A stretch of 64,000 nt of DNA from Aptenodytes patagonicus (lineage: Eukaryota > Chordata > Aves > Sphenisciformes > Spheniscidae), in the NCBI RefSeq assembly GCF_965638725.1, contig NC_134963.1, positions 12,304,501-12,368,500 of the forward strand, read 5' to 3'. The translations under genes were made by a program, and so were the position numbers. Below are positions 6,831 to 64,000 of this stretch, in pieces. The notes beneath the pieces are model-generated. The model saw only the letters and a program-made list of their open reading frames with translations, was not told where the DNA came from and did no database searches. The first letter of the stretch is position 1; each line of letters starts with the position of its first letter.

Positions 6831-6840
6831 CGCCGGGCCA

Positions 6841-6860
6841 GCACGTGCGCGTCACGTGAC
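6841..6860. promoter_or_regulatory. Tandem E-boxes including a perfect GTCACGTGAC palindrome
   Basis: GCACGTGC (6841-6848) is followed two bases later by GTCACGTGAC (6851-6860). The second is an exact match to the palindromic CLEAR consensus bound by TFEB/TFE3/MITF, and is also a high-affinity USF site. It sits between the two divergent first exons, a suitable place to affect both DEPDC5 and PRR14L. The sequence match is direct; the choice of factor is inference. Confidence 0.7.
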
Positions 6861-7029
6861 GCCCACCACCGAGACGGGTGGGAAGGAGCGGGCCGGGCCC
6901 GGCCACCCCCACCGCGGGACGGCGGGCGGGGCCTCTGCCGAGGGACGGGCCCGGCGAGGGCACCGGAGGCGGGGCGGAGCGGCCGTTGGTGGGGGCGGGG
7001 CCACAGCAACGGCCGCCCGGGCCAGGCGC

Positions 7030-7133
7030 GCAGCTCGAGCGAGCGGGCCCGGATGAGGAAGTGATGTGACTGGGGAGGGGGCGGGCGGGCGGCGCGGGCA
7101 GGACCGGGGCCGGCAGCCGCCGCTGCCGCTGAG
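7030..7133 (+). other. PRR14L: PRR14L non-coding first exon (5' UTR)
   Basis: A GC-rich leader ends at the donor GCTGAG|GTAACG (7133). It is the best plus-strand donor in the island upstream of the PRR14L start exon, whose acceptor is TTTTTAG at 8608. The 5' end is not determinable here. Intron 1 (7134-8608) begins in the CpG island and otherwise holds nothing I recognise. Confidence 0.55.
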
Positions 7134-8653
7134 GTAACGGGAGCGGAGCGTGGGGCGACGCGGGGGTTCTGCGGGGGAGCGGACCGCTGCCGCCGTCGCG
7201 CCGCGGAGGAGGGGGGTCTCCGCCGCGGGCCCGCCTCTTCCGCCGCCGGTTGGGAGTGGGCAGCGGCGCCCCCGGGCGAGGCGGGGCGGGGGGCCAGTCG
7301 CTGCCAAGGGGCCCTGCCCCGCCCGGGCGCGACGCGGCGGGGGCTCTGCGGGGCCGGGCCCGCTCCGTGCCGGCAGCGGGGGAGGCGGCGGCGGCGGCCG
7401 GGCACCGGCGGTTGCATAGTTACCGAGAGCGGGGGCCTCCTCCGGTGCGCTGTCTCGGGGCGGGTGCAGACCGCCGGGGACGGGCGTAGCGGATCTCGCC
7501 TCCGGTCGGGCCGCCGCTGTCCGGGGCCGAGGCGGGGGCTTCTGCCTCGAAAGAAGGAGAAGGGTTCGAGGCCGAGTCTGTCCGCGCTGCGGCGGCGCTT
7601 CGAACAAAGGGGCGCTCCCGCAGCCGGCGCTCCCGCAGTGCGGGCCGGCCGGCACCATAGCTGGAATGAATGAGTCAGGATCGCTAGAAAGGTGATCATT
7701 TCCTAAAGACAGCGTCCTCGTGTATTGCCGTGAGGCTGGCGCCGGCGAAGCGCGTTTCTCTATAGGCTGGTTTCCCTTAAGGAGCCGGGAGATCAGCGCT
7801 CGACTAATGAGCCCGTGTTTTTGTAAACCGATGCTCCTGTAAAAACCTGGCTTAGCCCATTCCTGTTTATCCATATACCTTCAGGAGCGATTAGATTGTA
7901 GCATCTTCACATCGGGGTTTTCGTTATGCCGACAGCGCTTGTGTCAGATCAGTCGGAACTCCTCTCCTCTGTGATGCGCGCGCTGCTGTGTGCTCTCGCT
8001 GACAAAGCAGGCTGCCGGGGACCAGCGCGTTCAGTTCTGGGCTGAAGAGGATCCCGACACCGGTACCAGGGCTGTGTGGAAGAGCAGTGCTGGCACAATG
8101 CATCCTACGTACAGCGTGTTGGGTGCTTAGGTGAGAGAAGCTACAAGGCACAGTGTATGATGGATGATGTCCCGGAAAGTGTTCCTTCAAGGCAGAAAAC
8201 ATATGAAGAAAAGTTGGGGTTTTTTTCCCAAAGATTAGAAAAAACTTAAGAAAATCACAGGAAAACAAATGACGCTTTAGTTTTAGCCAAGGAGTAGGAT
8301 GTCTAATCCAAGCCCAAGCGATTTGCTTTATAGTCTCTTTGCAGATTTTCCAGAAGATGAGGGTGTATCTGCAGGGAGACGTTTGAATGTGAAAATGAGG
8401 CTTGGGAATATCTGTTTGTCCATACTCTCTTCTTTTGTTAATGAAGCGTTTGCTTAGATACTCAAATGTTTCTTGGCTCCTTTCTTAAAAAGTTATTTGG
8501 AAGTATCTTTCTTAAATGTAGATGCCTGAATCTTGAAGAATGAAGCTTTTCCTTTTAATCTAGAGATTACTGCTACGTATGTTGATTTAACATTGCTTTT
8601 ATTTTTAGGGTAAACTGTGAAAAGCTCAGGACAACCGATCTTCAGCTGCCCTG

Positions 8654-24638
<15,985 letters not shown>

Positions 24639-30409: not shown

Positions 30410-33400
30410 TCAGTTCGATGAGGATGCACAAATATCCTGTTTGCAGAAATCTAAGATGCCTACGAACCAGTAAGAAAGTATACACTTAAAGATGCTATCA
30501 GCTTTAAAAATAACAGATTCTTCAGATACTATTCACCAAAACAGCAGAATAGAGGTAAAATTCCCCTTTTGAATTTCAGTTCTTTAACAACTTAGACTCA
30601 CAGAAGTCTAACTTACTGTGTAATCTTCATTTACTTCAATACAGATTTTTAGATCCCAAAACAGCTTGACCCTGGCTCATAGACAGTTTTAGTGATAGCT
30701 AAATGCATACTTCATAGAGCTTTCAGTGGAAAACAATGAAAAAACCATCCCTTAAGTTTATAAAGGTTTTGATCTTGAGTTCTCTAGTGCACTCTTTTTA
30801 AAAAGGAAATTATTTAACTTATTTTGAGGTTAATTCAAGAATTAAATATAAAATTTCTTATCTTCTTCCCAAGTTTGGCATATCCAAATGAACATTATAT
30901 TCCCTTTTCCCACAACTGATCTTTGGAATTGAAAGTAAAAATTTCAGAGTGGGAGTAAAACAGTCCTGTTTCAATAACCTCATATTTGCTCTAAAATGTA
31001 TTTGTTATTCTGTTCCTGCAGAGCTCCAGTTTCAGTGCTTTTGGATAGGAGTTGTAAGAGGCTCTAAAGGAGCTCCAAACACAGTACTCCTTGGAAAACT
31101 GTTACTAACAGGATTATGTAGAACATACTTCTCCATTCAGTCTAAACAAAAGGGCAATAGCTATGCACAGAAGGCTTCCCGCTTTGCATTTTTCTCTAAC
31201 TCAAAATTAAGAACTTGACTTTACCTGCAGGTGTACAGTTAAACACTGATTCTGCCAGTTGAAAGAAAGACACTCCAAGAATTTCCTGATATCTCATGTG
31301 ACTTGCATGAACAAGGTACTGAGTAGTATCTTTGAAAAGCAGATCACTTTCGCCATACTTCCACGACCGAAAGAGATGGAATTCAGAATCCAGTTTGCTT
31401 CCCAGAGATTCCTAAACAGAAAAGAAGTAAATTCCACAGCTTGGATCATAAATAGCAAAGTTAAGCTGGTGACCCTCAGTTTTATAGCAAAATCTAGCCG
31501 GGAAAAGGTTCCACTTTCACCTAGCACTGTACTTATTCATACAAAAAGATGCAGTTTTGCAGTGGCTTATTTCTCAGCAAAAGAAGTATAACCACTGTGG
31601 AATGGCAGCTGGTGCCAAAATGCCCCTTTAGAGAATCCAAATAACTATTTTCTCAATCTTCTATGCACTTTCTTAATTCTTTCATATTGGACCTGAAGGC
31701 ATTTTATGTATTTAATATATAAAGCTTTTGATCTGAAAGGGTTTTCAGCAGTCATACGTAACAAGTGATAACATGCTAACTTTTTCCCTGTTATCTGCCT
31801 TACCTGGGATTTCATTAGAAAGTCATAGATTTTAGTGACAGTGACTGGTCGAGTCATGACTGTGCTGGGGGGAATGGGGCCAAGGTTACAGCCTGCCCAT
31901 TCTGTGACTGCAGCACGCGTTCCATCCGGACACAAGAGTTCAAAGTCAATAGGGGTATAACCTTTTGCCCAACCAGACCTGTCCAGATCTGAAAAGAAGA
32001 TGAAGTGAAAGCAAATCCTTTTAAAAAATGATAGCAGAAGACAGGGTGAATCTCATGCAAAATGTTAAAAATTGAGAGGAAGAAGTTTAGTCAATATGTT
32101 CAAAACAAATGCAGCATACTATGTGGTCATTTATTAGGAACAGGGTAGTGTTTTCACTGCAGAAACAGGCCAGTGAACTTAAGTTGCACCTATCAACTAA
32201 AAACTAGAGTAACATCAAGGCATACGAACAGCTTATCATGCCTCATCTTCATCTGTAATCAGATTGCTTTCTGAAAACAAAGCAATTCAGCCTGCATGTC
32301 CTTTGCTTCCCCAAACAAACTGCTCATCGCTGCATGAATTCCTGTGGGTTTCCAGGCCCTTAAACCTCCACTTGATTTCAGAGAGATTCCTCTCTTAGAA
32401 AAGTCTCTTCTGTTACTGAAATTGCCTAAATTAGAATTTCAGTGTGCTTTATCAGGCTGAACAAAATGGGGGTTCCCTTTCTCTTCACCTCTATGAAAAG
32501 GCAGCATACTTTGGCTGTTAGAGCAGTGGCATAATTTAAGAAATTGAGGGGATTTAAGCTACTGTAACCAAAACCATTTTCATCAACAAAATCCAGTTAC
32601 TAGACTGTTGCAAAGATCAGTATTTCCCGGAGGAATTTAAACATTTCACAGTGTAGTAACAATGTTGTTTTAGAAATTGTGAAAGGCAAAATAATTTGCA
32701 GTATTTTTACCTATTAAGCTATTTGGACTTTTTATTCCATAAGTGCCTGTGAAACAACATGAGGAAGTTGCCATGTCACGATGAAGCCATACAACATCTC
32801 CCAGCACAAACAGCCCACAGCATTGCCCTTATCTGCCATTTTCATTCTTGAGACTCTGATTAAAACCAACAGGTACATGCGCTATGGCTGCCTATGGGAG
32901 AAAGTCTGGTGGGAAAAGTCGCTTGCTTTTTAAAGCTTTGAGCTTTCCAAAAATTAGTGCAGTCTCCAAGGATGATTACTCCCCAACACACACCTTGATC
33001 TTTGCACTCAGTGATTCCTCTTTGCTCTCTAACACTGAACAGTATCTGAACTTCGAGCTTTACTGGAACACCTACATGCAGGAACATTCTTGCAATCTTC
33101 CAGTCACAAACACAAAGCAATTAATGGACATAGATTAAACCTGTAAAAGCTGATCCTCACGAGTGATAGTCAATGTGTGGGAAGTAACTAATGAACATTC
33201 TCAAAGGAAAAGAGAATATCTGCATCTCACTCTCTATGTTCTGGAGTAGGTTAGAGTGTTCCAGGAAAGCTACATCTCCGAAGCTTCTTCCACTGGGATT
33301 GCCAACTAGGCACCTAGTGCAGGAAAAAAACCAAGAAGTTATCAGAGACAGCCACTACACAATGACTGACATTTGGACAGTCATCTGAAGCTAAAACAGG

Positions 33401-36400
33401 AGTAGCTGGAAGTATCCCCCTAATCTGTAATTACTTGGTGGTTATATGGAACAAGTTAGTGATATCAGTATAGACCTTGATGGACAGTGTTCACATATTT
33501 GATAAAACAATCCCTTTCACCCCTTAAAGCAGCTCCCAAGTCAAAGTTGTGGCACAATGTCCATACAGCCTCACCTGTGCCTAGCCAGGAAAGAGAATGT
33601 AATTCAACTAAATGCATTATATATATTCCATAAGAGTGCTTTCACCTTTAATACTCTGCCTCTGCTTCAACTATGTTTTTTTTAATATCTCCAGTCTATT
33701 TAATTACCTCCTGTACCCTACACTGCTTTTTACCACATCACCTCTGCTCTCTGACCCTCTAACTATCTTTCAGCCCTTCTCTTTAATGAGTCAGTACCAA
33801 TGCACTAGGCCTTTCATGTTTGGAAGCACTGTCTTGCTCTGGAAATGGTTTCATGACTGTTTTAAATCACCAATCAGCTGAACATCCCATAGCAACTGCA
33901 ACCAAAACAGAATACATGCTAGCAAAAGTTTATACAGCCAGTTGCTTAACAGAAAAAAAAACTCCAAAGAAAACCATCAGCAAAATAATAAGCCAATTCT
34001 GGCTATTGCTCTGCATTTCTGACTCCAACAAAAGGCTTACCTGAGTGCTCCCATATTGCCATAGTAACGTTCATTGTGACTTGCAGCACATCTGCTAGAT
34101 ACTCGAGCCCCTTCCACCTCACTGTCTCCAATGCACACCCTGCACAGGTTTCCATCTGCTCCTGGCATGCAGCCCTTCCAAAAGTAATTCTGATAAACTG
34201 AGTAGAGAAAATTGAGGTGAGATTAGGGCAAGGTATTCCAAAGCCTCTTCAGGCATGGGAAAAGACAGGAATGGAATTCCATCCTAATAGCTAGCAAGAA
34301 GAGGGCTAAATAGTGTGAAGAATCACACATAGTCAGATAGGAGGAAGGGCTGCTTCAACACCCTCTGAGACTGCAATCATCACTTGCTGGTCAAATCCTC
34401 ATGGCCCCATCTCCATTTTACTCCCAAATTTGGGGCTTCAGATTTCCATGGTCTAGTCAACAGATAACCCAGAGTAGCCCTTACCAGAGCCAACGTCACA
34501 GTTCTCAGTATCATTCTCCAGAGCTCCCATTGTGTATCTGGAGAGCAGTAACCATCCTCCAGGACTATACAGGTGACTGTGGCAGGATCGCCTTCCCTTA
34601 AGGTTACGGATGTTAATCTGTTTGGCATTTTTCTTAGCTAGGGCAACAGCATAAACTGGTGGCAGTGCTGTAAAACAATGACAACAACCAGTTATACCAC
34701 GGCAATTATTCCAGACAGGTACAGCCCCCTTCTTCCCTCCCTCATCCTGTCACGGTATCTTCAGTTACAGCAGAGGATCTGCATTCTTTGCTTAGCCACA
34801 AAGCTCTTGTCCTAGCTGCCCTGCATTATCTGTAAAGCTCCTACTGAACATGCACAGCAATTTCTTTCCCAAACCAACATGCAAATACATTCCTACATAA
34901 ATCTTAGAGGCAGCCTCAGGAAAACCTAAACCTTTTGCCTTCTCAAAGTTGTCCTGTTACCTTTGCGCTTAAGATGAATTAGTTTCCCTGTTTCCTCCGT
35001 GCTCTTAGCAGCCGGGGCACAATCTCCCCCTGGAGAGGAGAGACAACCATTAAGGATCTTGTGACTGCTGTCATTCCTATTACATGGCAGCATCCCATCA
35101 AACACCTTGCAACCCTCTTGAGCCATGTCAGCATCTCTGTCCCTTTTCCAGAAGAGATATAATAAACAGCCAGACCAAATGCTAGAGCCAGTTAGTGGAA
35201 GAGCTGGGAAGAGTATTTGGACATATATATTGATTCCTGCTTCCATCACAACACATCACAAACTGTGGAGATTTAACTATATTTTTAATGGTACTTGTCT
35301 GATTCCCTCCCTTATGCTAAGGTCACATGAGAACTTACCGTAACATTCTGCAGCTACAGGAACCAATCCACACCTCCCTGCAATGTAGACATGCGTTGCG
35401 TCCAGGGTGACTGCATCAGCCTCACTACTCTGCCAACAGCATTACAGAAAATAACAAAAACAGGATTTGCGTGAATTGTGTAACCAAGCAGCTATACTTC
35501 CCCACTGGTTGGAAATTCCCCTGCATAAATTTCCTCTCATTCCCACTGGTTCCTCTAGTGTACAAGCTGGTTTTCCTCTTGTTCAGCTCAGACAAGGACA
35601 TACACACCCTGTGCAGTCTTATCATATACTCTGACCAGAGGGAGTCTCCTACCTTGATCATTTCAATGCATTTGGTCATGGAAGTTGCTTGGACACAGAC
35701 TAATGGGTCAGATTTGATGCTCAGTGCCCACTCCTCACATTTGCGCAGCTCAGCGTCACTGATGCAGCACCAACGCACAACACTGTTGTCCAAAGAGCTC
35801 CCTGCATTAGAAGGAAGGAGCACAGTGAGATCATGTCACCTATGCACCAATCTGTTCTTTGCTAAGGGGACATTTAGGTCTATGCGCTTGTGCCTGGCAG
35901 GGAGGAATAACATGGAAAGAGAACTTTTTCTTCCCTTTCCTTAGCTACAGGCCTCTGGAAGGCTTCTCACCTTCATGGCCAAGTCCCTTTAGGAGAGCTA
36001 CATAATCCAGACCAAGGACATAGGCAATCTCTAGCTGCTCCTCAAGAAGCTGCAGGTGCTGAGTGGCGTCCCGGAACAGCAAGTTCTTTCCCCTGAAGGG
36101 TGCTGAGGTGAAGAGTTCAAACCTGGCTCTTTCCTTTCCTTTTGGCCCAAAGAGGCGCTAGGAAAAGAACAACACTTTTAATTGCAACAGATCTGTTCAT
36201 CCTTCCAGTAACAGGCAGCCTCATCCTCCTCTCCCTTCATATCAGTGGTTTGTAACATAGCACTCAGGGTTCCATCACACTGGGACAAAGCCCACAGGTA
36301 CTGCAGTGAGTGGATGGTTCCAGTCCTAAAAGCATTATATGATTCACTTTTTTGAAGAATTTTTTCCCATCTTAGTTATTCTAATTTATTGGACTGTGCT

Positions 36401-39400
36401 CAATGTCTCCTACCCTGGAAAGGCAACTGAGGGAGTATAGCTGAGTGAGAAACATTTGTGATAAAGATCAGTGCAGTAAAGGGGTGCAAGATATCTTGTG
36501 CTTTATGATGGGGAAGCACCATGTGCAAAGTAGCTCTGTTCAGCCTGATGGTACTGGAAGAGAAGAAAGCACTGGGAAGTGTACTAGGAACACTGCTGCA
36601 TAGCCATTGCTATGTGTGGGGGAACACAGCTAAGATATGTGTGAATATGCACTGACAAAGGCATATGAAGTTCTCTCAATAAAGAAGAGATTTTGTACAA
36701 CTGCTATCTGCCAGAGTCCACATGACAGCACAACCCAGCCCACTGGGTTGAATTATTCACTGACTGCTGGACTATTTTAAGGGCCAGATAGCTTCATAAA
36801 TTATTTAAATTTGCATTTAAATATGCATTTCAGGTTCAGCTTCAAATAGATTCCTGGACATCAAGGTAACAGATACTATTACAAGTTGAGAAAAAGAGAG
36901 GAACAAAGGTGAACCTGCCTGAACCTATGTGTCTCCCTCAGCTACATAAGAATTCACGTAAGTTCCAGGGCAAGATGAACACCATTAGCCATTTTCCAAA
37001 GATGGAAGAAAAGCCTGTGTCTGGAGATATACAGCTTATACTATCCACTCACTTGGATCATGGTAAGGAATTTGTTGGTGATCTTCTGGAAGTTGTGGCG
37101 GGTGATGATGCCACGGCCAGGCCCCTTGCCCAAGTTACAGGTGCTGTATTCAGTCAGCTCAGCTGTAGTCCCATCAGGACATAAGAGTTCATATTCCTGT
37201 TGTTCTGACTCTGAAACAACAGGACACTCATGAATCTATGAAGTGAGACATGACTTGGCAGCAGGCACAGAGATGGAAGGTAAAACGTTTTTCAGAGGAG
37301 GTTGCTCAAAGATTATGCAAGCAGCACAGTGTACCAAGCACACTTGGCAAAGTTGTCTTTGATAGGCTCTTCTCTTAACAAAGAGAGGGACCTCAGCCAG
37401 AGGTACTCCAAAATACTCTTTAAACTGTACCCCTGTAAATACGTTTGTTTAAAAATACTTACCTGCAAATACTACTGCTAACCACCTTCAAAAACGTCGA
37501 TACAGAGCTCGACTGAGTTTAAAAATACAAAACAGGTATATGGGAACTGCACGTTCTAGCAGCTCAACACACTGAATTTTAAAAGGAATCTTGTAACTCA
37601 GGCAATGCAAATACACACAGCTGCGTCAGAGACTTCAGGCTAAAGAAACCACCTGTATAAAAACTTCTGTCTGCTCCCATTCTAAGAATCTCCTGTGAGC
37701 AATTATTGCTCACTTACTCTTTCCTTTTCTGTTTCCTTCTGACTTGTGTGGAGAGCCAAGAAATACCACTGAACTGCTTTCAGGGATTGAATTTTCCCTG
37801 GAAACAACAAAAATATAGGCATATTCCCCAAACTCCCATGGAGGAAAGGGCACAGCCAGAGGTTAAAAGGAATCTGAGTTTTTAGGATTTACCTGTGGCA
37901 CTCATAATTGTTAGATGATCTAAAAAGGCAACATCTGCCACTCCATTCTTCAAGCACCTGCAAGAAGACAAATGCCAGCTTATTAACGTTACCTGGCTTT
38001 TCCTCCCACACAGGTTCTTTTTCCCCTGAAGGTAAATTCAGTGCAATTGTCACATAGCTCACCTGAAGGCTCCCTCAGAGTCATAAAAGGGTTCGTCGCT
38101 GCTTGTCTCACAGAAGTGGTTCTTGTCTCTGACATAGGATTTTTGTCCTTGGCAGAGCGCACACAGTCGAGGAGCAGCAACACCAACCCCAGGGATGCAA
38201 CTTGCATTGAAATACTCACTGATTACTGCAGATGTAGGGGGGAAAAAACAAAAAGAAAGAAAAAAAGTTAAATGGGAAAAAATAGAAGAAAGAAAAGGGG
38301 CCAAACATATCATGGGCATAACTAGGACTATGGTGCTTTCAAAAATAAATAAATAGAACAGCAAATGCAGCTTTGTTTTCTAAACTTCAAATTTGAAACA
38401 TTTGCTGGAAACAAGTGATCAAATTGTGCTTGGTTGAAATCATCCTTGTGCTGGCTAGATATTGCAAAGATTTGTTCCCCGTTGCATACAGAACACAAAA
38501 TTTTCTGTTTTGGTAACAATTCTGCTGCTTTGAGATCACTAGAAAAGTTCTGAAGAGAGCTAAAAGCCAGTATAAAAACACTCCAAGAGGATATCTCATG
38601 CACAATGCCCTTCAGTTTCCACATAGCTCAGTTCATTCTACATCTGCTTGCATTTCACTCACTTTTGCTGAGGGCAGAGACATAGCCCTATGGCTCCTAT
38701 CACCCACCTTGGCTCAGAGGTTGCGCCTCATCCCAGGAAAGATCATTTCTTGCAAGGAGAAAGCCAAGTGGAATATTCCAGCCTGATGTCCATCTGGCTC
38801 CATTGTGGCAGCTGCGCGCACCTCGTAGCCTCTGGATATCCAGAGTTCCTCGTTTGGCAATGGCCACAGCAAACACACAATTTCCTGCGATAGGACAAAA
38901 TATGTAACAGAAATAACTAAATCCCAATTCTGCAGCTTCCATCTGTGTACAGGAGTTCAACTACTTCTGTGAACATGGCTAAGGAGAAAAAAAAAAAATC
39001 TTAGGCATATGAAACATAGGTACTCATGCCAGGAACTTTACCATATACTGGCTACATGGCACCTTCTCGAACTGAGCAATGCAAGTGACGTGCAAAGCAA
39101 GAATGTAAAAATCTGGTGGAAAAGGCTTACAAGATCATCCAGCTCCATCATCCAACGCAATTCCTTCTCAAGAATTTTGAACATTTGTATCACACTGTTT
39201 AGGTATTGTAATGGAAAGAACTCCTATGTCTTATCCTCAGAACATACTTTCCACATGAAACATCAATTCCACTATGATTTCATGGTTCTTCAACCAAAAC
39301 AAAATTCACTTCTGTTCTCATACTGTCCCCTTATTAGTCTCTTCCTACATCCATCTGCTAATTTGGCTTCCTTCTCAGATTCATGTCCCACAAGTATTTT

Positions 39401-42400
39401 CTACTGTATGCTTGATTTTGGCTCAGACTTATTTATTCTTGCCTTATAAATCATTCATTGCACAGACTGTTCAGGTCTGCCAGGAATGAAGAGAAATCTT
39501 ACCATGACAAGATCCTCCACCTTATATTCTTGTCTCTTTAGGGTGAGAAGGAGAGAATTAATTCATGACAGAAGATAATCTCTTAAAGAACCACTAGTAA
39601 ATGTTCAGTTACACCAGTAAAGAGCATGGTATAAGAATTGACACGGATGGAATAAACCCCTTCTTATTCCTACAAGATGTAGAGCTCCAGTACACTAGTG
39701 CTGCAGGCAGGGGTACAGACAATTTGTCATAGTGACAGTACCACAGGCAGAAAGGCTACTAGATACAAAGCACCACTGGTATTTTATGCATCATCACTAA
39801 GTATTTTAGAAACAGTTGTTAGTCACCTCCATACTCCTATAAAGTTAGTGAAAACATATAGACTTTTTTTCAAGAATTCTAGAGCTTTGCCTTTCACCGC
39901 ACAGCAGTTTATTAGCCAAATCAGAAGTACAGCTTATTCTTTTGCTTTATGAACCTACCTTGATCATAGATCTCCTTTGCCACCACTGTCAAACCATATA
40001 GCTTTACAGCAGAGTAAACATCTCCAGCATCCAAGGAGGCAGCATCTGCTTTATTCACCTTAAAAACAACAGCAAAATCCTCAAAACAAGTGTGTTTACA
40101 GGAACACAACAGAGCAGCTTCAAGAGCAGAGTTTCTACCTGAGAAGCAGTAACCAGTGATTTTTACAAGCATTTGCTTTGTTTTTAATTGAATCCCTGCT
40201 ACTAAGCATGATGAAATGTTAGCAATGAAGGCTGAGTTACCTTCAAAAAATACCAGTTCTTTTCCAGCAACATCCTTTCTCACCTCTTCTTTGGGCCTTC
40301 CATTCCCAAAACACAATTCTGATGCCAACTGAAGAACAAGGCAACCCCTATTTCCTCCTACTGCTCCCCCAAGACCCCAGATTCTTCTCAGACTTCTCCT
40401 GGCTATAATCTTGCCATAACCCAGAAAGTGGAACTGAAGTCTATTAACAAGGGTTGCAGGACTGAATGAAAACATGAAATAAATCATTCCCTAAACCAAC
40501 AAGAAAGGTTTTCTTTGTTTTGTTTTCCAGGTCAGATTTGGACTCCATTGAAGGCAACTGGGACTGAATGAAAATGAAAACTGAAATTCTCTATCCCAAT
40601 CAAGTTTAGGTATGTTAATGAAATTATTCTACAGCAAATGTTTATCTTCCTTTTTCATTAGTGATTTTTTTCAAAGCATATAGCACTATGAAAATTTCAT
40701 TTCAGAACTGGTCAATTACAAGAGCTTACACTTACAAAAGGTCTTATGTCTAATTTTATTCAAATTAAAGATTTTTATATTAAAAAGGCTTTGCTCTTTG
40801 CTTCAGAAAAGACTGACTAAGGGCTAAGAATAGCAGGGAAGAAAGGGAAAAGAAAATATTCACTATAGTCAGAGTAGGACCAAAACCCACAAGCAAGGGG
40901 AATGCTCTGAGCAAGTTTTAATTTAGTAGTTTGGTTTTGTCCATTTATTTCCAAGCAGCTTTTACTTATTTCCTGGAGATTGCAAGGACATCAGCTGGGG
41001 TAAAATAGTACATCTAGTAGAATGCTCATGGGTTTTAATTCTTGCCTCTCAAGCTACCGTGTACTTTGTCATATATGCAATACAATCATTTCAGTATCAT
41101 TTTATTCTCCCATGGATTCTGTTTACCAGTTACTTCTTCAAAAGAGGATTTGGACTCAAAATCAGTTTTAAAAATCTCTGTGAACTCACCCTGATTTTAT
41201 CAATGCAGTCATATGTATTGTGGGCTCTGATGCAAGAAATCCTAGCAAATGAATTGACAGTAGCAAGGGGCAGCACAGCCGTAAGTGCTTTGGACAGTTC
41301 AGCACACTTTCTCTGTTCTAGGTCAGAAAGGGTGCACCATCGGAATTTCTTCCCTGTAGGATCAAAAAATAAGTCAAGATTTGTAGGATTTAGTGAAAAA
41401 AAAACTCAATTTAAGACCTTACGGAAAAGTGAGGTTATTTTATTTTAACTTCACAAGTAAGTTGATTCTGCTCACTCACATATCCACACACTTTCAGGCA
41501 CCCAAGAGATGTGCCCAAGCAGTCTGACCAAGATCACTTTTGCCCAACATGGAGGACAATGAATGTTTGCTGTTGAATCTTTACTATGTCTCTGCTTCCT
41601 CTTGACTGGGAGCAACAAACTAGTTTTTAGGTAAATTCTTCAAGAACCAACAATTATTATGGCGTGATCTTTTGCCTCAGAATCTTTCTTGATTCATCCT
41701 CCATGAATTTTAGGCAAGGTTGCCACACAAAATGAGGAAACAAAGGCAAGGACATCTTTATGGCTATGGTCTGTTTTCCTGTTGGGATAGCAAGGAGAGG
41801 AATGGCACTTACAATGTAGGGTAACCTTGTTACCATCTTCCTGTTATCAGGCTGCAGTTTTTCTCCTAACAAGTCAACTGTGATGTGACCTTATCAGAGC
41901 ACAGACCTTCTACTCTTGATGTAAACAATGCATTCCCCAGGGTTTATCAGTTTTATTGCTGTCAATTGTGTCCTTGGTTATCAATACAAGCCATTCTTTT
42001 AACCTTTGCTCTGCTGTTTCCTCTGGTGCTTTCAGACACACATATTCCCATGCATAATTTATCCATACCAATCTTAATATTCCTGTTACAAAGTTCTAGA
42101 GAGTCAGAACTAAGCCTGCAAAAGAACGAGAAGTACGGAGGGAGCATGTTGGTAGGGGATCAAGTTGCTTTAGCTTTGTTGAATTTTGTCTTTAGAGAGG
42201 GGATTGTTGTTTTTTAAACAGACAATAACTGGTGTTCCAAGTCCCAGCTGTCTCACAGCACTGAGCTACGTGCTTTGTTAGAACAGCGTTTCCCACTGAG
42301 CGCCATGCTTTGTTAGAACAGTATTTCCTCCCCATTTTCTTTCCAGACAAGGACTACGTGATTTCAAATAATAAAACCTGCATCAGAGCTCCAGGGTCAG

Positions 42401-43893
42401 AAAACCTTAGATCAGAGAAGTATGAAAATTTTAAGTTGGAAGAAGTTCACAATTAAATGCTACTTTATAATACAGTAAACCAAATCCCTCAGTCCAGGAA
42501 GTGAGGATCTGGGACTATTTGAAATTACAATGGCAATTCTGTGACTTGGACCTTCTTGTGTTTTTAAACAATGTAATATCTAAGTGTTGCCTCAGCAATG
42601 ACAAGTAACTTGCTGCACTTCCCTCAAGACAGAGAGGTTTATCTTCCATAACAACACCTACCACGAAAGACAGAAACTAGGGACAATTTGGTTATTGACA
42701 ATGAAGAATCACGTACTATGTTTAACAGAGTATTGAATAAGTGTTAACCACAAAATCCTTACAATCCTACCTCTTCCAAGCAGGAAGTTAGTAAGAATTA
42801 TCTTAATTTCTGGATGCCAAACAAAGAGATTAAATAACCTGCACAAGAACACTTGATAAATTTGTAGCAGAACTGAACCACTCAGTTGTCAGATCTTTTT
42901 CCAGCTGAAAACTAAGTAACCAATAAAAACCAAAACAAAACAGTGCCAGCAGAAAGAAGGAAGATGCAATTAGAAGTGGAGGAGAAGGTGAAACCTCCTT
43001 TTCCACGGGAAGCCGGGATTTGGTTCATTTAAACTGACTATGAAGCTACGTCCTAAGTAGTCCAGACATGTCAACAAAATTTCCTCTTTTGCTTTAGGCT
43101 CCGATTATTCTATCTTGGATGTACTATGACTTATTTTGTATTCTTCCTATTAAATGCCTTCTACTCTGAAATATATCATCATATACATCTCAAGAAGATG
43201 CTATGCATTTAAGGAGAAAAAAAGTGATTATTCTATATAAAAACAGCATGCAGTTATGTAACTTGAGAGAATCTTATACCATGTAATGAAAACCAGGACT
43301 GAATGCACAGAAAACACTCCAACATCTCTAACGTTGTTATTTCCAGATGTTTAAGCATTTGGCTCTCTGGCGATCTATTAATATTAAAAAAAATATTGCC
43401 TGGAATAAATAATGTTTACAATTAAAACACCTAAGTTTTTATTTCTTTGAGCATAGCATCAGACATTGGTACACCACTTGTTTTGACATTAATTCAGCAC
43501 AATTCCAAAAAGAACCCGTTGTGGTTTTAGAGGGGAGCAGCTTGAAATACAGTGATTCATTTTGACAGCGTTAATGAGTACGCAGATCTCAACTATTCAA
43601 AGGAAACAAACCTTCACTGAATCGCTAAGAAACTAGTGTATCAAGCTGCTTCAAAACTAACAGGGTCACCATCTGCCAGTGATCCAACAGGAAAAATACA
43701 GGCAAATAGAAATCATAGGCACACTTCTAGCTGCAACTTGTTTGCACAGAAGAAAACAAAACCAAAGCATATATTAGAGTTTGTATCCTGGTAACCCATC
43801 CAGAGGTCACCTTTCTCTTTCCCTCTCTGCATCAGCCTTACCTGAAGACAGCAAAGTAAAGATGATTAGGACAATTAAAATCACTGCTTTCAT
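30410..43893 (-). CDS. Two-lobed transferrin-superfamily protein lacking iron ligands, complete
   Basis: Seventeen exons on the minus strand: 43842-43893, 41190-41353, 39959-40058, 38708-38884, 38063-38225, 37893-37957, 37053-37210, 35971-36157, 35653-35801, 35339-35429, 34961-35029, 34485-34667, 34041-34197, 33231-33313, 31804-31988, 31225-31411 and 30410-30459. They join to 2220 nt, 739 aa, with no stop. Seventeen exons with repeated phases in the two lobes is the vertebrate transferrin gene plan. Residues 1-18 are a signal peptide ([17 protein letters not shown]). N lobe: [47 protein letters not shown] lobe: [51 protein letters not shown]. Asp ligands D82 and D415 remain. The positions of the other ligands hold V109, S214, R273 and V463, N567, S641, and the anion-site arginines align with W137 and S493. 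N-glycosylation sequons occur at N171, N510 and N719. It ends [11 protein letters not shown] with no GPI tail, so it is probably secreted. Nearest relatives by eye are melanotransferrin and serum transferrin; a saxiphilin-like or otolith-matrix-like identity is possible, but no thyroglobulin insert is seen. Confidence 0.93.
41354..43841 (-). other. Intron 1 of the transferrin-like gene
   Basis: A 2.5-kb intron separates the signal-peptide exon from the first lobe exon, as is usual in transferrin genes. It holds a 35-bp tandem duplication (listed separately). I see no other gene or clear mobile element. Confidence 0.6.
42261..42330. repeat. 35-bp tandem duplication
   Basis: Two adjacent 35-base copies (42261-42295 and 42296-42330) both start CTGAGC and share GCTTTGTTAGAACAG, with a few mismatches. 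It is a local duplication in intron sequence. Confidence 0.8.
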
Positions 43894-46260: not shown

Positions 46261-46309
46261 AAGCAGCTGAACCCCAAGTGCCTCATCCTCAACTCCCCAA
46301 GAAGCAGTC

Positions 46310-46625
46310 CTCTCCTCAAACCATACCTCCCTTTGAGGAACAGCTTTGTCCTGATACCATACCCCCTTTTGTGGAGCAGCCTTGTCCCCATGCCACAAAC
46401 CCTCAGGGACAACCCTGTCCCCACACTGCATCCCCCGGGAAACGGCCCTGTCCCCACATCATGTCCCCTCAGGGCCGGCCCTGTCCCCACACCACATCGC
46501 CTCAGGGACGGCCGTGTCCCCACACCACACCCCCCAGAGAACAGCCCTCACCACATACGACGTCCCCCTTTGGGGAGCAGCCTCGTACCCGTGTCCCCAT
46601 TCCGCATCTCCCCTGAGGAACGCTC
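46310..46625. repeat. 33-bp minisatellite upstream of PISD
   Basis: The motif CTGTCCCCACA recurs at a spacing of 33 bases (TG of TGTCCCC at 46383, 46416, 46449, 46482 and 46515), with looser copies on both sides. Because 33 is a multiple of three, several frames stay open; one reads as 11-residue repeats of the type QGRPCPHTTSP. The array ends as the PISD CpG island begins. It is C-rich on the plus strand. I regard the open frames as a by-product of the repeat. Confidence 0.85.
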
Positions 46626-46659
46626 CCGTCCCTACACACCATACTCCCTTCAGGTAACG

Positions 46660-47110
46660 GCCGCCTCCACACACCATCCCCCGGGAGCGCCCCTATCCCC
46701 TCACACCACCTCCCCGCGCCGGCCCCGCCCCCCCGCCGCCGCCGCCGCCGCTTGGCCCCGCCCTCCCGCCCGTCTCCCGCCCTCACGCGCGGGACGCCGC
46801 AGAGGACGCGGCGGCGGCGGCTCTGGAAGATGGCGGCGGCCGTAGCGCGGGGCGGCGTGGCCGCGCTGCGGCGGAGCAGGTACGAGCACGGCAGGCGGGA
46901 CGGCAGCGCGCTGCGCTGCGTCGTCCGGCGATGAGGGGGCTGGGGCTGTCCGGCTCCGGCAGAGCTGGGGGCGAAGCGGCAGCCGCTGTCTGACAGCCGG
47001 CACCCCGGGGGCGGGGGGCGTGAGGAGGAGCCGGGCGGCGGCCCGGCCTCCCCCGGCCCGGGGGCCGCGGCCGCCCCCTCCTCTCCGGCTGCCTCGTTCG
47101 GTGACGTTTC
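46660..47110. promoter_or_regulatory. PISD: CpG island, PISD promoter
   Basis: Very GC-rich and CpG-rich, with a (GCC)n run near 46736, GGGCGGGG boxes and no TATA box. It surrounds PISD coding exon 1 (46830-46879). Long open frames on both strands (such as minus 46701-47207) are GC shadows. Confidence 0.85.
46826..46837 (+). promoter_or_regulatory. PISD: TISU / YY1 element over the PISD start codon
   Basis: GAAGATGGCGGC matches the TISU consensus (SAASATGGCGGC) at 12 of 12 positions and contains the YY1 core AAGATGGCGGC. The ATG inside it is the PISD start. TISU elements direct accurate initiation from very short 5' UTRs and are enriched among mitochondrial genes, so the PISD mRNA leader is probably short. 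The motif is seen directly; the role is inferred. Confidence 0.8.
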
Positions 47111-50100
47111 CCTGCCGGGGTGAAAATGCGGTTGTTTCTGGTGCCTGGGCCCTGTCCCCTGGGCATGTGCAAGGAGTCTTGCCCTCGTTCTCCAAGCTGG
47201 AAAGCAAGATGAAGGTTTTACGTTTTTTAAGAAAGGAAAGCGTGTCGCCTTGTATAATTTTAACTCGGCCTCATAGTCTATAGTTGTCAGTGTCTAACTG
47301 TTTAGTAGAAATTGGTAGATGGGGGCAGCTACTGCCCCAAAGGTTAGGTAATCCCCGGGGGAGGACCGGCTGCGAGGAGAAGCAGCTCGTGGGGAGCCCG
47401 ACTGTCCTTTACAGGAGGTATTCTCTGAAAGCTTTTGATTTTCGTAACAATGAAACAGTTTTAAGAATACTGTTTCTAGGACACAATTTTGTGTTCTTAG
47501 AACACACAATCCCTTTACTCCACCTTCTCTCTCAAAACCTGGAGGAAACACCTCATGCACAGAGCGTGCCATTACCGTCTGGTCTCGGTGCCTGGCAGTG
47601 GAGTGTTGTCCTTCGTCCCGTGACGGCTGAAGTCACCGAGGGGCTGAAGGTAATGACGTGCGGAATCAAACTTCACAACTCAAAAGAGTTATAAAGCAGG
47701 TATGTTTATTACGGCGCCGGGTGCAAGGGGGATAGTTCCTCCTAGTTTGCACACCGTATGTTGCATCAACTGTCTCTTACATGGTTCTGCGGTGTACATA
47801 TTCGTTACCATAGGCTGGGTTAGTACAACTAGTTCTAAGAAAAGGCAGGGATATTTTATTTCCAGGAACCCATTATCATAGGCTCCCTCCTCCTGGCGCA
47901 CGCATACTGTCGTCTGGTGGTCGTCTATTGGGGTCTTTTGGAGGAAGATTCACAGTCGTCTTCACTGTGTACCTTCACCTCTGGCCCAGAATGCTGAGTT
48001 GGCTGAGCTTCAGACCGCAAGGCTGGTTTCAACCAGATGGTCGCTGAGTGTATACATTTAAGTTTCTGTTATCTACCCAACTTCTGTAACTTCTGCTAAC
48101 AATAGGGTTACAGTGTCTTTGCCAAACATTCTATTATGCTTGCAACAGCATCTATGCTATTGGAGTTACTAACTACAATAGTTTATGCTAATAATTAGCC
48201 ATTTGTTCCCTAATTCAGTAATGTGGGATCCTGGCAGTTCCTGCTCCAACAACCTCCCTTCCGGTGGCAGAAGCAGGAGGCCAGTGCTGTCCTACACACT
48301 TGTACCCATCAAGGTCAGGCTGTCAGGAGCAGGGAACGTGAAGCTGACAGTAAACTATTTAGTCTTCTCATCTTTACCTATTTTTAGACAGATTTCAGGG
48401 TAAGGAGGAGACTGGTTTTCCCATGTTGGACATCAAAAACAATTTTGTTAAGAGCTTAGGGTCTCTAATTAATTGTTGCGTCCTTCCTCTGTGATGGTCT
48501 GCCTCCTGAAGTACCAAGTCCCGGTATGCCCTGCCCTGCCGTGGCAACATGACCAGCTCCTGGATGCTCCTGAGAAGCCAACACAGCTAGTTTTGTCCTG
48601 GCTGTGCATTTTTTTTTTTTTTTTTTTTTTTTAGGTTATTATGTATCAAGACTAATATATGTCTTGAGAATACTAGTGCTTTAGGGTGTAGCTAAGTTTT
48701 AGTATTTTTTTCCCCCTGACTTTTTAGGGTTCTAAAACTTTTCTGGTAAATTTAAGTCTAATGCTAACTGGATTAGTTCTTAGCGTTTTTTTAATCCCTT
48801 AAAAGTAGCCCACAGGCTCCCAGCTTACTGATGGGCAAGTACTCCTTTTATCCCAGGTGTTTTAATATGTTGTAAAGCAGGCCTTGTAATACCGCAAATT
48901 AGTGTAGGTCTGGTGTATGACCCAAGCAGATCAAGTGACCTCATTGTTCATCATGAAATTACATCATGTTGCTAGGTAAAACATACAGGTTCTGCAGCAG
49001 TGTGGGACGCTTTTTCTGTCTTCCTAAGGAAATAATATCCTGGGAGATGATGCAGCAGTGTGGCATGTTTAGCATCTGGTTACAGGAATCTATGTTTTGG
49101 GGAGGCACCATCCTGTCACATTTGGGTTAATACAATGGTTTTAATAGAGACGATGAAGCTGAAGGGCAGAGTGAAATATTACTGACACCGTGTTATGGGG
49201 ATAATTGAAAACTAGCTATTTGTCCTTGGCTAACATTAAAACATTGTTAACAAGTGTCAACTAGTATCATTATGTGATTTCTAGACAAGAAATCTGCTAT
49301 TTGTAGACTTCTAAATAAAGAGATAATGTCTATATGTCAGTCAGTAGACACCCGAAATTAATTCTTAAAACTCTTAATAATCACTTCCTGGGATTGAATC
49401 ACCCTAAATGATGCAATAGCTTGTAAGCTAATGAAGTAATTCTGTACTCAGCATGTATCTGATCAAGAGCAGATGAAAGGTCAGAGGGCCAAATGAAGAC
49501 ATCCCAGCTGTGGCATTTGCATCCCAGGAATGAGCGGGCTGCACAAAGACCTGCCAGACCTGGTTCTTCCCAAGGGGCTGAGCCTGTGGGTGTGAGAACA
49601 CTGCCTCTCTCCTGCCCTGGCTTGGGCCTGTGATCCTGTCTGACGGCAGGATGTGGTGTTGCCGTGCCGTCTTCAAGTACTTGTCGAAACACGCTTATTT
49701 ACAGACTTTGAACAGGAGTAGTTCTTGTACAATTGGATGGATCCTTTTCAGATTTATTAGAAACAGGAAATTAAATATTATATATTAAACATATGAAAAA
49801 TCCTGGTTGGACCTTTTCCCTGTGTTGGCCAGTTATAAGGCTATTTTATGTGCTTTCAGAGTGGCAGATCCACTCGCATTACAGTTCACCAACATACAGA
49901 CTGGTAAGACAAATTCTAAAGAAGAGCTTCTGTGCCTGGCAGCTTTTTTACTTTTCCAGCTATACCAGTTGGTCTAATAAATGTCATTACTTCTTCATAG
50001 AATCCATAACTATTCTAGGTGGTACTCCTCCCCACCAGCATGGCGAGGAAGGAGATCATAGAATCATAGAATAGTTTGGGTTGGAAGGGACCTCTAAAGG

Positions 50101-56100: not shown

Positions 56101-56835
56101 GAAATGTGCCTATTATCCTGTTTACCAAACCTACGCTAAAGCAGGTCGTAATTTCCTTCCCTCTTCCAGTTAGCTGTACAATTTGGGGATTCCCTAACTA
56201 CAATGAAAGCTTTAATGGCTGAGAAGCATGAAGCGCCACAGTACTACAGATTTCCCCAGCAGCTGATTATTCTGTATAGTAACAACATAGAAGATCTCAT
56301 AGTTGGAAAGTATGATAGTGTTTTCAGGCAGCTCATTTTATATATTTCTCCATGGTGCTTTCAGGCAGCTCATTTTATATATTTTAGGGGGAAGAATGTT
56401 GGAGGGATGTGGGGTGGGGGCTAGGAGGATGAGGTTGAAAACACAGATGACCAGTTAGTGTTCGTCAGCTGAGTTTCAGTAACTTGGTAAGCTGCAGTAA
56501 CTGGAGTACTTAGGAGCATCTATGCATACCTTCTGTATCATAGATTTCTGATCACATTTTCATCACCTAAGCTGACATCCCTCACTGCACATCATAGCTT
56601 TTTCTTTACTGTGTAGTTACTCTCTTTCCTGAAGTCTGTTTTTTTTTTTTCTGTTGCAGACAGGAAGAAGCTTCATACTGCTCCGGTAGGGCAAGTCTTC
56701 CGCCTGCGCCCCTTCCATGTTCTGGTAGCTACAGGTGGGGGATATGCAGGATACAGAAAATATGAGGATTACAAGTTGGAACAGCTGGAGAAAAGGGGCA
56801 TAGAGGTGCCTGTGAAGCTTGCAAGTGAGTGGGAG
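46830..56835 (+). CDS. PISD: PISD, phosphatidylserine decarboxylase, exons 1-3 (partial)
   Basis: PISD converts phosphatidylserine to phosphatidylethanolamine at the mitochondrial inner membrane. Exons 46830-46879, 51176-51270 and 56660-56835 join in phase (50+95+176 nt) to give residues 1-107. Exon 1 reads [16 protein letters not shown], an Arg-containing, acid-free N terminus typical of a mitochondrial presequence. Exon 2 ends HPPSRTFFS. Exon 3 carries the recognisable family stretch: [16 protein letters not shown], then [20 protein letters not shown] (the transmembrane anchor region) and KLASEWE, where human has LAGHWE before VALYKSVP. That next exon and the LGST autocleavage site lie beyond the window. 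The start is fixed by the TISU element and the phase. PRR14L and PISD are on the same strand, as in human, but are separated here by the transferrin-like gene. Confidence 0.94.
47654..48397 (-). mobile_element. Probable solo LTR of an endogenous retrovirus
   Basis: Read on the minus strand, this block has LTR architecture: a long U3, a canonical AATAAA (plus-strand TTTATT at 47705-47710), then about 50 bases of U5 ending in CA at 47654. It lies in PISD intron 1. GGTAA is present directly left of the proposed end (47649-47653) and again one base off the right end (48399-48403), a possible 5-bp target duplication. No gag, pol or env remains, so it is a solo LTR. Ends and family are approximate. 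Confidence 0.6.
48609..48632. repeat. Poly(T) tract, 24 bases
   Basis: An uninterrupted T-run in PISD intron 1. It may be the tail of a degraded retrotransposed copy on the minus strand, but no body is recognisable. Confidence 0.9.
50055..50215 (-). mobile_element. CR1 retrotransposon 3' fragment with internal duplication
   Basis: ATCATAGAATCATAGAAT followed by GGTTGGAAGGGACCTCTAAA and CATCTAGTCCAACCCCCC is the reverse complement of the CR1 3' end. A 30-base unit (50137-50166) is repeated exactly at 50168-50197, a tandem duplication inside the element. It is a 5'-truncated copy in PISD intron 1. Confidence 0.93.
51271..56659 (+). other. PISD intron 2
   Basis: 5.4 kb of mostly AT-rich intron. 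It contains a poly(T) run near 52182-52201, a 9-bp-arm inverted repeat at 51816-51841, a 26-bp direct repeat (56322-56347 and 56359-56384) and an unexplained minus-strand open frame near 53.0-53.3 kb. No further coding exon is recognised. Confidence 0.55.
56322..56384. repeat. 26-bp direct repeat
   Basis: TTTCAGGCAGCTCATTTTAT plus ATATTT occurs at 56322-56347 and again at 56359-56384, with 11 bases between the copies. Confidence 0.85.
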
Positions 56836-57154
56836 GTAAGAAACCTGGGTCAATTTTGCTTCTGCCACGTTTGATGCAAAGCTCCTTTGCTTTCATTCCG
56901 ACAAGGGAATGTTTAATTTGTCTTCTACTGCCAATGCATTTTTGACAAACCATGGAACTAAAGTTTCTGTCACTTAAGTAACTATCACTTTGGCTGAAGT
57001 CAATTTAATGATACATTAGGAACTGCTGGCATCTCCTCCATCTTCTAGTATGGTTGACACTTTAATTTTTTAAATACTTGTCAAATAGGAGGTGGAGGGG
57101 ACAGTTGATCAAGTGGCTGTATTATGTATTTTGAATAAAAAGGTGCTTGGTAGG

Positions 57155-61200: not shown

Positions 61201-61379
61201 GAGTAAAATCAGCCTTTTTTTAATCTGACCAGTGAGATGGCTTTTTGACTATATAGGCCTGTTCTGTCTCGTACAACTTCCTGAGCATCTTGCTGGGATT
61301 ATGCAGCAATTCATCTGAGCGCTTCAGGAGCGCTTTATGAGACCGCAGTGCACTTTCTTGCCTTGGCTGAAAATGGGTA

Positions 61380-62470
61380 TGTCGGACTGTGTTGACGCAC
61401 CAAGACACACCGCGGAAAGCGCAGTCTCCCGGGAAGCCGGGCGACGTACAGCATCCGCGCTGCCGCGTTGTTCCCCGACGCGGTCGCTCTCCCTGTTGCC
61501 TTGGCCGGTGGCTCCTAAGCGGTGATGCGGGGACCTCCTTGTTCCCCGGGAGTGCCCGACAGCCAGCCTGGCAGCGCCTGGATGCCTCCCCGGGCAGACC
61601 CCTTCTCCCGCCGAGCGCCCGAGGTCCGGCCCGCCGGGCTGCGGGCCCCCCGCCCCGCCCTGGGGTGCTGCCGGGCGAGACGGCGTTGTCGCCGTGTTCC
61701 GGTCCCTCCGGTTTCTCTTCCTTTTCGTTTCTGCTGCCCTGGCTCCTCCTCCGAAGGGGGCCGGGGCCCTGCGGGAAGGCAGCCGCCTTGGAGCGCCAGT
61801 GGCTGGGAGGCGAGGCGGGGGAGGGCCGCCTGCCCCGCGCCGCTTCCTTAAGGCGAGGACCGGGCGGCGGCGAGCGGGCGGGAGCGGGGGCCGGCGGCGT
61901 CCCCTGCCCGGCCGTGCCGGAGGTAGGTGGGGGCCTGCCGGGAAGGGGGTGCGGGTGGGGCCCTCCATCCCGGCCCCCCCGCTCTGCCGGAGAAGGGGCT
62001 CGGCCGGCGGCGCGGAGCCCCGCGGGGTTGCGGGGGCGGGAGAGCTGGGCCCGGCCGGCGCGTTGGTGGGGTTTGCGTTCCGCTGCTTTGTTCACGTGTC
62101 TGAAAACTGCTTTAAAAGGGCGGGTCAGCGTCGCCTTTCAGCGAGTGGAAGCAAAAAGCCGGGACGGAGGAGACCTCGCTCGGCCGCTGGCGCCGCCGGC
62201 CGGCATCAGGTAAGGGCTTGCGGACTTGCAGGGCAGATGTGCGAGGTCTGATGGCCGGGCGGCAAATAATCGTTGGTCTCTGGCTTGCTGGAAGTTTCGG
62301 GAGAGATGTTCCAGAGTCTGGGCTCTCTCACGAGCGATCTCCCAGCAGATGTAAACAAAACCGGTCTCTTGGACCAGCGTTATCGGAGTTCAGGGTCCCG
62401 TTAACTTCCTCAGCCGCCGGGAGGGCGGCTGGGGCCGCCGCAGCCGCCGCGGGCTTTGTTCAGCTTGGCC
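61380..62470. promoter_or_regulatory. CpG island inside PISD intron 3, possible alternative promoter
   Basis: A second strongly CpG-rich block lies 4.6 kb beyond PISD exon 3. Near its right side a TATA-like TTTAAAAG (62111-62118) is followed by GGGCGGG. About 30 bases further a leader could start (about 62140) and run to a good donor, GCATCAG|GTAAGG (border 62209). PISD is known in human to have isoforms with different N termini, so an internal promoter for PISD is a reasonable reading. A separate gene is the alternative. Open frames through the block on both strands are GC shadows. Confidence 0.6.
62140..62209 (+). other. Candidate non-coding first exon at the internal CpG island
   Basis: This stretch lies between a TATA-like box (62111) and a consensus donor at 62210, and contains no ATG. 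It is predicted only from signals. Confidence 0.35.
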
Positions 62471-62959
62471 GGGCTCTGCTTTGTTGGGAAGGTGTAACGC
62501 GGTTTATGCTTCCGTTAGAGCTCCCTTACAGGGCAGAGAGTTTGCTTTGCAGGTATCTTAAGCTGAAGCATGGTCTTTTTAAACATGAAACGGAAAACAT
62601 TGCTACAAAATACTAAAATAATACAGCGTATTTTAGGTGTCATCAATTTTCATGTCACTTTGCAAAAGTGAATAAAAGTAAAAAAAGTAAATAAAACTTC
62701 TTTTCCTTGCTTCACAGAAGAGATCTTTGAGACTGCGTAACAGGCTTTTTGCACAGAATTCGGGTTTAAGTTTAAAAAACCACCCAACCTTTTACGACTA
62801 GCTTAAAATACCGCTTTTTTTCCCCCCTCCATTTATAGAATGCAACGAAAACAGCAACGTAAAATTGGAGGAAGACGATCGAAGGTTTTTTTCTTAATAA
62901 ATTAAGCATATTTATATTAATAAGTATTTATTAGTACATTAGGAAAAGATACAGAAAGC

Positions 62960-63330
62960 TTTCTTCGTATGGGAAGTGGAAGAGCTGCAGAAGCCGGGGC
63001 GGGTAAGGCGGGGCGCGGCCCGCTGCCCCGGCCCGCGGCGGGGAGCCCGCGGGAGGCGGTGCCCGCGGCCGGCCCTTCCCGGCCGAGCTGGAAGCGAAGG
63101 CGCTTCTCAAAAATCACGCGGCCTTGGCAGCCGCCGGCTCTGTCTGCGCTCGCGTTTCCCCGCAGCGTGAGAGCAGTTCTGTTGTGCTCTCGGAGCTCGG
63201 GAGCTCCCGGCTGGGCGTGGAGCATCCAGCGTTTCTCCCGCTGGGCTGGCTCGGGAGAGGGTTGGGTGGGAGCGGGGATTACGGGTCTGAAATTAAACGG
63301 GTACTGCTGGGAAAGGAAGGGGACCGTTAA
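62960..63330. promoter_or_regulatory. Small GC-rich, CpG-rich island
   Basis: A separate GC-rich block follows AT-rich sequence at 62.6-62.95 kb. It could be part of the same regulatory region as the 61.4-62.5 kb island. No exon is supported. The sequence from 63331 to the window end shows no recognised feature. Confidence 0.4.
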
Positions 63331-64000
63331 TAAACGGTCGCCGAGTACCTCTCCCCTGGTTGCAAGACCTTATTTTCGCTGGCACTTAAATAGAATGCAG
63401 CGCTTGGATGCGTACGGTGCATTTTTTAAACCGCGGTTCTGTTACCAAACGCAGAAAGTGTGACCCGAGGGCTTTGAGCGCTCGGACCAGCACATTCCAA
63501 GCCTAATGATTCACGCTTATGATTTGAAACCGAGACTGCAGGTTTGAAGTTCAGTTGCATAGTAGTCTTTCTTGCAAATGCCTTGCTGTATTGTTTTTTA
63601 AAACTTGAGGGGAAGGGTTTGAGGTAGTAATGGAAAGACGAGTAATTAAAGGGGTCACTGGATTTGACGCTTATTTGAGCTGGCAGAGCAGAACGGTGCT
63701 GCGTAGCTGGCAGATTAGCAGTTCTCTGTTAGATAATAATTCTCTAGGGATTTATACCTGCTGGTAACTGCTGCTTTTATTTGCCTAACGTGGATTCTGG
63801 GTGAGTTCAGACAGGTGGGGCAGTTTGGTACTGATGACCAACCTCCTACAGACCAGCAATCGCCCAGATTCTTGTCTAAGCTAATAACGCAGGCTCTGTG
63901 GCGCTGCCTGCATCACAAGAAGTCCGGCTATTGAGATGCCATTACATGAGTTCCCCTGTCACGAGCTGGTTGATTACCAGTTCTTGTTCCTTTCCCCGTG

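Follow-up and report, generated by a model that had tools for sequence, protein, structure and literature searches.

We analysed a stretch of 64,000 nucleotides from Aptenodytes patagonicus (hereafter the window; contig NC_134963.1, positions 12,304,501 to 12,368,500) and found on its minus strand a real and intact gene of the transferrin family, a variant of a known family, of ancient and not of sauropsid origin. Transferrins are known from textbooks as carriers of iron. Judged by sequence, neither lobe of this protein retains an iron site. On balance, we think it probable that the gene encodes a secreted two-lobed protein of transferrin fold, with six of the eight iron ligands replaced, that would hold a non-iron ligand, likely in the cleft of the C-lobe. 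As for its history, the chances seem about even that this transferrin branch abandoned iron in its two lobes prior to the split between sharks and bony fishes, built a new C-lobe pocket for a ligand that has scarcely changed since, was kept by the other major jawed-vertebrate groups sampled and was lost by mammals.

Gene model and iron sites

Splicing and translation of the coding exons gave a gene of 17 exons (first base 43893, last base 30410) in which all 16 introns were GT..AG and 2220 nucleotides stayed in frame, coding for 739 amino acids with no internal stop. The product matched Pfam Transferrin (PF00405) twice, i.e. it is two-lobed (E 2.7e-141). An earlier note, written from the letters of this stretch alone, had proposed 17 minus-strand exons with correct splice sites and a 739-residue two-lobed transferrin-family protein; our model agrees with it to the base, and the open frame that it described as intact over 2.2 kb was indeed uninterrupted. 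Above the Pfam cut-off the product carried only Transferrin domains, the sole other match being a sub-threshold Phosphonate-bd, and no second transferrin-like match was detected in the window outside the 17 exons (best E 1.4). By reading, exon 1 is predicted to encode a hydrophobic signal peptide, and the C-terminus is not hydrophobic and gives no sign of a lipid anchor.

The iron site of each transferrin lobe consists of an Asp-Tyr-Tyr-His (DYYH) ligand set, the carbonate being held by an additional Thr and Arg (PMC7804310 and PMC3125230, both in excerpt). We aligned the family to human TF (hTF) and counted residues over 224 members. In the window protein, the N-lobe ligand positions are Asp82, Val109, Ser214 and Arg273, with Asn133/Trp137 at the carbonate positions, and those of the C-lobe are Asp415, Val463, Asn567 and Ser641, with Ser489/Ser493. 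Only the aspartate is thus kept in each lobe, and both carbonate arginines are replaced. Across the family, Tyr occurred at the ligand-tyrosine sites in 0/224 members at three of them and in 0/223 at the fourth. Arg456 was kept in none of the 224, and Arg124, Thr120 and His249 in four, three and eight of them, respectively. In melanotransferrin (MELTF), the C-lobe has Ala/Ser at the carbonate site and does not bind iron, a loss credited to the absence of both carbonate residues (PMC7804310, in excerpt); both lobes of the window protein lack both of them. The four members that keep Arg124 were a chimaera, two sharks and a lungfish (P0166, P0169, P0204, P0168), and Trp stood there in 219/224; the arginine in these lineages is apparently a trace of a former anion site in the N-lobe.

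The aspartates were retained almost without exception (hTF Asp63 in 222/224, Asp392 in 224/224), and a nearly invariant His418 lies beside Asp415. Both observations would fit a protein that binds Fe(III) or another metal through non-canonical residues and still takes part in metal handling. We regard this as rather improbable: the four Tyr sites, the C-lobe Arg and Lys206 are changed in every member, and the N-lobe Arg is gone in 220/224. The same losses, together with a separate clade in the tree, distinguish the family from serum transferrin, ovotransferrin and lactoferrin, with which it shares the two-lobed fold, most disulphide cysteines and the two ligand aspartates.

The best PDB match of the window protein by sequence was MELTF (429.5 bits). 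Human MELTF has a full DYYH set in its N-lobe and can be lipid-anchored (PMC7804310, in excerpt), whereas the window protein has DYYH in neither lobe and no hydrophobic C-terminus. The exon number is the one given for cod MELTF and for cod Tf1 and Tf2, all with 17 exons (PMC3125230, in excerpt). The same excerpt describes OMP (otolith matrix protein) as a single-lobed fish relative of transferrin that lacks most iron residues; the window protein, in contrast, is two-lobed, and the fish members of its family are long enough for, and aligned over, most of both lobes.

Taxonomic spread, phylogeny and names

In a first protein search, the best 120 of 631 matches were all bird-named, with 87-97% identity, which excludes chance resemblance. 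A Tauraco protein matched at 95% over the full length and a hoazin protein at 97% over 62%. The hoazin record (P0026) is an annotated isoform without the exon 12 stretch (183 nucleotides, in frame), which is where the C-lobe once had its carbonate site. A wider search was restricted to proteins of at least 723 amino acids, which kept out partial bird proteins. Its best 120 of 560 matches comprised 16 birds and 104 others, with 58-81% identity, mostly over 95-100% of the query, and the non-bird groups were crocodile, turtles, lizards, snakes, salamanders, caecilians, frogs, lungfish, bichir, sturgeons, gar, many teleosts, two sharks and a chimaera. The comparison with other proteomes that the earlier note had proposed thus returned full-length relatives in birds, crocodile, turtles, lizards, frogs and fishes. 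Members were present in quail or turkey, Xenopus and cyprinid fishes; lamprey, hagfish and coelacanth lay outside the sampling. Two rows of 'lgn' source (P0138 and P0209) came from contigs of 3067 and 2500 bases whose frames run to 734 and 731 codons. As these contigs are far shorter than the 13.5-kb gene, they likely represent spliced transcripts.

No mammal was present in the 118 named rows of these best 120 of 560 matches (proteins of at least 723 amino acids; two rows unnamed; mammal genomes not searched). Amphibians, lungfish and fishes scored 1006-1219 bits, 1006 being the weakest score of the 120. A mammalian orthologue, if as well conserved as in other tetrapods, should score above that value; we therefore prefer a loss in mammals, which is likely. 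The earlier note had left the choice between an insertion in the sauropsid line and a loss in mammals; the first of these fell, with relatives in sharks, chimaera, ray-finned fishes, lungfish and amphibians within one clade, and the second is the likelier. For the same reason, it is hardly credible that serum transferrin or melanotransferrin was duplicated or inserted in the bird or sauropsid line, as names such as melanotransferrin-like and serotransferrin-2-like might suggest, and a bird-line origin was rejected on the full-length relatives found from chimaera to turtles. The gene has most likely been present since the jawed-vertebrate ancestor. A duplication would have created it before cartilaginous and bony fishes parted, and its loss would have fallen on the mammalian stem.

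We then considered a tree of 26 members (the window protein and 25 fetched proteins) with human TF, human LTF, hen ovotransferrin, human MELTF and two frog saxiphilins, in which MELTF had one row only and neither OMP nor the inhibitor of carbonic anhydrase (ICA) was among the rows. The 26 family rows formed one clade with support of 100/100, apart from TF/LTF, MELTF and saxiphilin; TF, MELTF and saxiphilin are among the relatives that the earlier note had suggested for a tree. Support for the TF/LTF group was 92/86, and the window protein fell outside the group of human TF, human LTF and ovotransferrin. Inside the family clade, amphibians, squamates, birds, turtles and cartilaginous fishes roughly followed the species tree; the crocodile paired with turtles (87/83), not with birds, the deepest fish branches were weakly supported, and the 26-member tree came with a warning that long branches meet. 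Both frog saxiphilins joined TF/LTF in the best tree (96/97). Approximately unbiased (AU) tests rejected neither the family and saxiphilin as one clade (p 0.177) nor the family next to TF/LTF (p 0.107), and when N-lobes and C-lobes were placed in one tree, the lobes of MELTF paired with each other (85/80) and the root was not fixed. The family is distinct in the 26-member tree; the order among MELTF, TF/saxiphilin and the family is left open by the AU tests and the lobe tree.

Database names of members include melanotransferrin-like, serotransferrin-1-like and serotransferrin-2-like, saxiphilin-like and, for Xenopus, 'saxiphilin'. One Xenopus laevis record named saxiphilin (P0162) fell in this family, away from the two frog saxiphilins of the PDB. 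Like the proposed function of the window protein, that of saxiphilin in frogs involves a transferrin relative with a non-iron ligand, and both carry Asn at position 517 of hTF and an additional Cys at its position 94. These residues, the joint clade left standing by the AU test, the 'saxiphilin-like' names in fishes, caecilians and Xenopus, and the occurrence of Phe at the F561 column and of Asp at D794 (17/224 each) would suit a true saxiphilin orthologue acting as a toxin sponge. We consider such an identity very improbable and dropped it, given that the best tree places the saxiphilins with TF/LTF, that the 739 amino acids hold no thyroglobulin inserts (Pfam, above cut-off) and that the toxin contacts are absent. 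Of nine contact positions, all except E540 being putative and the alignment being gappy around 558-563, the window protein agrees at P727 alone, and at Y558 the reference chain itself is mutant; elsewhere it has Ala at E540, Leu at F561, Pro at T563, Ala at F784, a gap at D785, Glu at D794 and Ile at Y795. E540 is a published toxin contact (PMC12022044, in excerpt).

The names melanotransferrin-, serotransferrin- and saxiphilin-like are accordingly not supported for this family as far as the sequences tell. A description of this iron-site-less family was not found in the open-access literature, among the matches listed, and we do not claim that it is undescribed. Such misleading names may feed wrong functions into expression studies. 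A salmon gill study, for instance, lists a 'saxiphilin-like' gene among toxin-sequestration genes (PMC8202022, in excerpt), and that gene is likely a member of this family.

Conservation of the clefts and proposed function

The replacing residues are themselves nearly fixed, namely Asn567 (223/224), Ser493 (221/224), Asp232 (223/224) and Glu590 (224/224). Most disulphide cysteines are kept, and the extra Cys108 and Cys368 were found in 224/224 members, whereas human TF, LTF and MELTF and ovotransferrin have no cysteine at these positions. Frog saxiphilin shares Cys108, whose pairing with Cys368 is a suspicion only. In order to quantify the conservation of the clefts, we used 106 sequences (102 non-birds, the window protein and three birds; effective number 23) and 20000 random sets. 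With an approximate list of cleft positions, those of the C-lobe were more conserved than their lobe, only 39/20000 random sets being as low, and 172/20000 were as low for the sites that differ from TF/LTF. Asp415, His418, Tyr492, Ser493, Pro494, Trp497, Leu498, Asn567, Glu590 and Lys688 stood out as conserved positions. Fixed replacements, kept cysteines and a conserved C-lobe cleft argue that the gene is not a relic, and the present function supposed in the earlier note gains support from the depth of this conservation.

We propose the following mechanism. The protein would be secreted, as predicted from its signal peptide and disulphides and from the want of a hydrophobic tail. Each lobe may still open and close in the manner of a Venus flytrap on the kept Asp82 or Asp415, and the grip on Fe(III) and carbonate would be lost in its usual form with the tyrosines and the carbonate arginine. 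A C-lobe pocket formed by Asp415, His418, Tyr492, Ser493, Asn567, Glu590 and Lys688 could then receive a small molecule or anion as candidate ligand, the N-lobe serving mostly as scaffold. Because flytrap lobes would remain, the usual Fe(III)-carbonate hold would be gone and the C-lobe pocket appears rebuilt and kept, a secreted protein that carries or senses a non-iron ligand in its C-lobe is the most likely reading, comparable to saxiphilin, which binds a small molecule other than iron.

A number of nearly invariant changes fall outside the listed cleft positions (Cys108, Cys368, PLV 388-390, Lys405 and the linker region 348-356) and would suit an inhibitor or decoy that acts by protein-protein binding, with the clefts as dead remnants. 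ICA has the transferrin fold and is not known to transport iron, and it provides a solved example of such a member (3mc2); it is far closer to human TF (935.7 bits) than to the window protein (only 368.6 bits). The raised conservation of the C-lobe cleft, changed sites included, would not be expected of dead remnants, and we hold an inhibitor or decoy to be unlikely.

Some points weigh against a carrier or sensor of a non-iron ligand. For the N-lobe cleft, conservation did not exceed that of its lobe (2384 and 3812 of 20000), so that the ligand idea rests on one lobe. The cleft positions are approximate ones for human transferrin rather than taken from coordinates, and only the ligand and carbonate sites among them are backed by papers. 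High cleft conservation could also come from the needs of hinge and folding. In the predicted structure of the 739-residue product, the arrangement of the lobes is unsure (mean predicted local distance difference test, pLDDT, 79.9; predicted template modelling score, pTM, 0.63; six short stretches below 50). A non-canonical metal site is still tenable, and the loss of single ligands does not always end iron binding (PMC7804310, in excerpt).

A branch without iron sites that extends from sharks to birds and is still about 60% identical between them implies that the fold has very likely served a second role through most of jawed-vertebrate history. Absence from mammals, if true, would explain the want of a settled name and would mean that the function is dispensable, or was taken over, in mammals. 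Altogether, this is likely a long-conserved protein of unsettled role that goes under misleading database names.

Neighbouring genes and features of the window

The gene lies between PRR14L and PISD, as the earlier note had placed it, with a Tantalus frame on one side and a PISD exon on the other (Table 1). The Tantalus match (E 1.4e-7, 31.8 bits) is slightly below the Pfam cut-off of 32.8, and we take this domain to be that of PRR14/PRR14L. The large exon assigned to PRR14L (11940-17774) had no Pfam match at 0.001 and only weak unrelated ones at 5, and did not confirm the gene, which is recognised by the Tantalus frame. The PISD exon was 57% identical to an approximate human PISD sequence; a laxer repeat with this query detected no further PISD exon in the window, and the rest would lie past its end.

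Table 1. Coding exons of the transferrin-family gene and its flanking features (positions in the window; residues of the 739-residue product, with hTF equivalents in brackets)
Feature	Positions	Strand	Basis
Whole coding span, 17 exons, 739 amino acids	30410..43893	-	Spliced translation, Pfam
Exon 1: start codon and predicted signal peptide	43842..43893	-	Signal peptide by reading
Exon 2	41190..41353	-	
Exon 3: Asp82 (Asp63, kept)	39959..40058	-	Alignment to human TF
Exon 4: Val109 (Tyr95), Asn133/Trp137 (Thr120/Arg124), family-wide Cys108	38708..38884	-	Alignment
Exon 5: Ser214 (Tyr188)	38063..38225	-	Alignment
Exon 6: Asp232 (Lys206)	37893..37957	-	Alignment
Exon 7: Arg273 (His249)	37053..37210	-	Alignment
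Exon 8	35971..36157	-	
Exon 9: C-lobe start, family-wide Cys368	35653..35801	-	Alignment
Exon 10: Asp415 (Asp392, kept), His418 (Phe395)	35339..35429	-	Alignment
Exon 11	34961..35029	-	
Exon 12: Val463 (Tyr426), Ser489, Tyr492, Ser493 (Thr452, Gly455, Arg456)	34485..34667	-	Alignment
Exon 13: Asn567 (Tyr517)	34041..34197	-	Alignment
Exon 14: Glu590 (Lys534)	33231..33313	-	Alignment
Exon 15: Ser641 (His585)	31804..31988	-	Alignment
Exon 16: Lys688 (Arg632)	31225..31411	-	Alignment
Exon 17 and stop	30410..30459	-	
Open frame with Tantalus domain of PRR14L, 3' neighbour, convergent	24339..24635	+	Pfam, just below cut-off
5' coding exon of PISD, upstream neighbour, divergent	56656..56838	+	Approximate human query

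In the teleost Siganus canaliculatus, the model P0211 runs on from transferrin-family residues 1-695 into a sirtuin (696-973) whose best PDB match is 5oj7, which we take to be a SIRT4. The 3' neighbour in this fish is probably a sirtuin gene rather than PRR14L, and the position between PRR14L and PISD may therefore be younger than the gene itself.

At the left end of the window, beyond PRR14L, an approximate human query detected eight pieces of DEPDC5 5' exons (minus strand, between 5231 and 342). DEPDC5 and PRR14L stand head to head, with a CpG island at 6101-8100 separating them. Two more CpG islands near the right end (61201-62600 and 62801-63500) have no assigned gene, and a further one at 46301-47500 is a likely PISD promoter.

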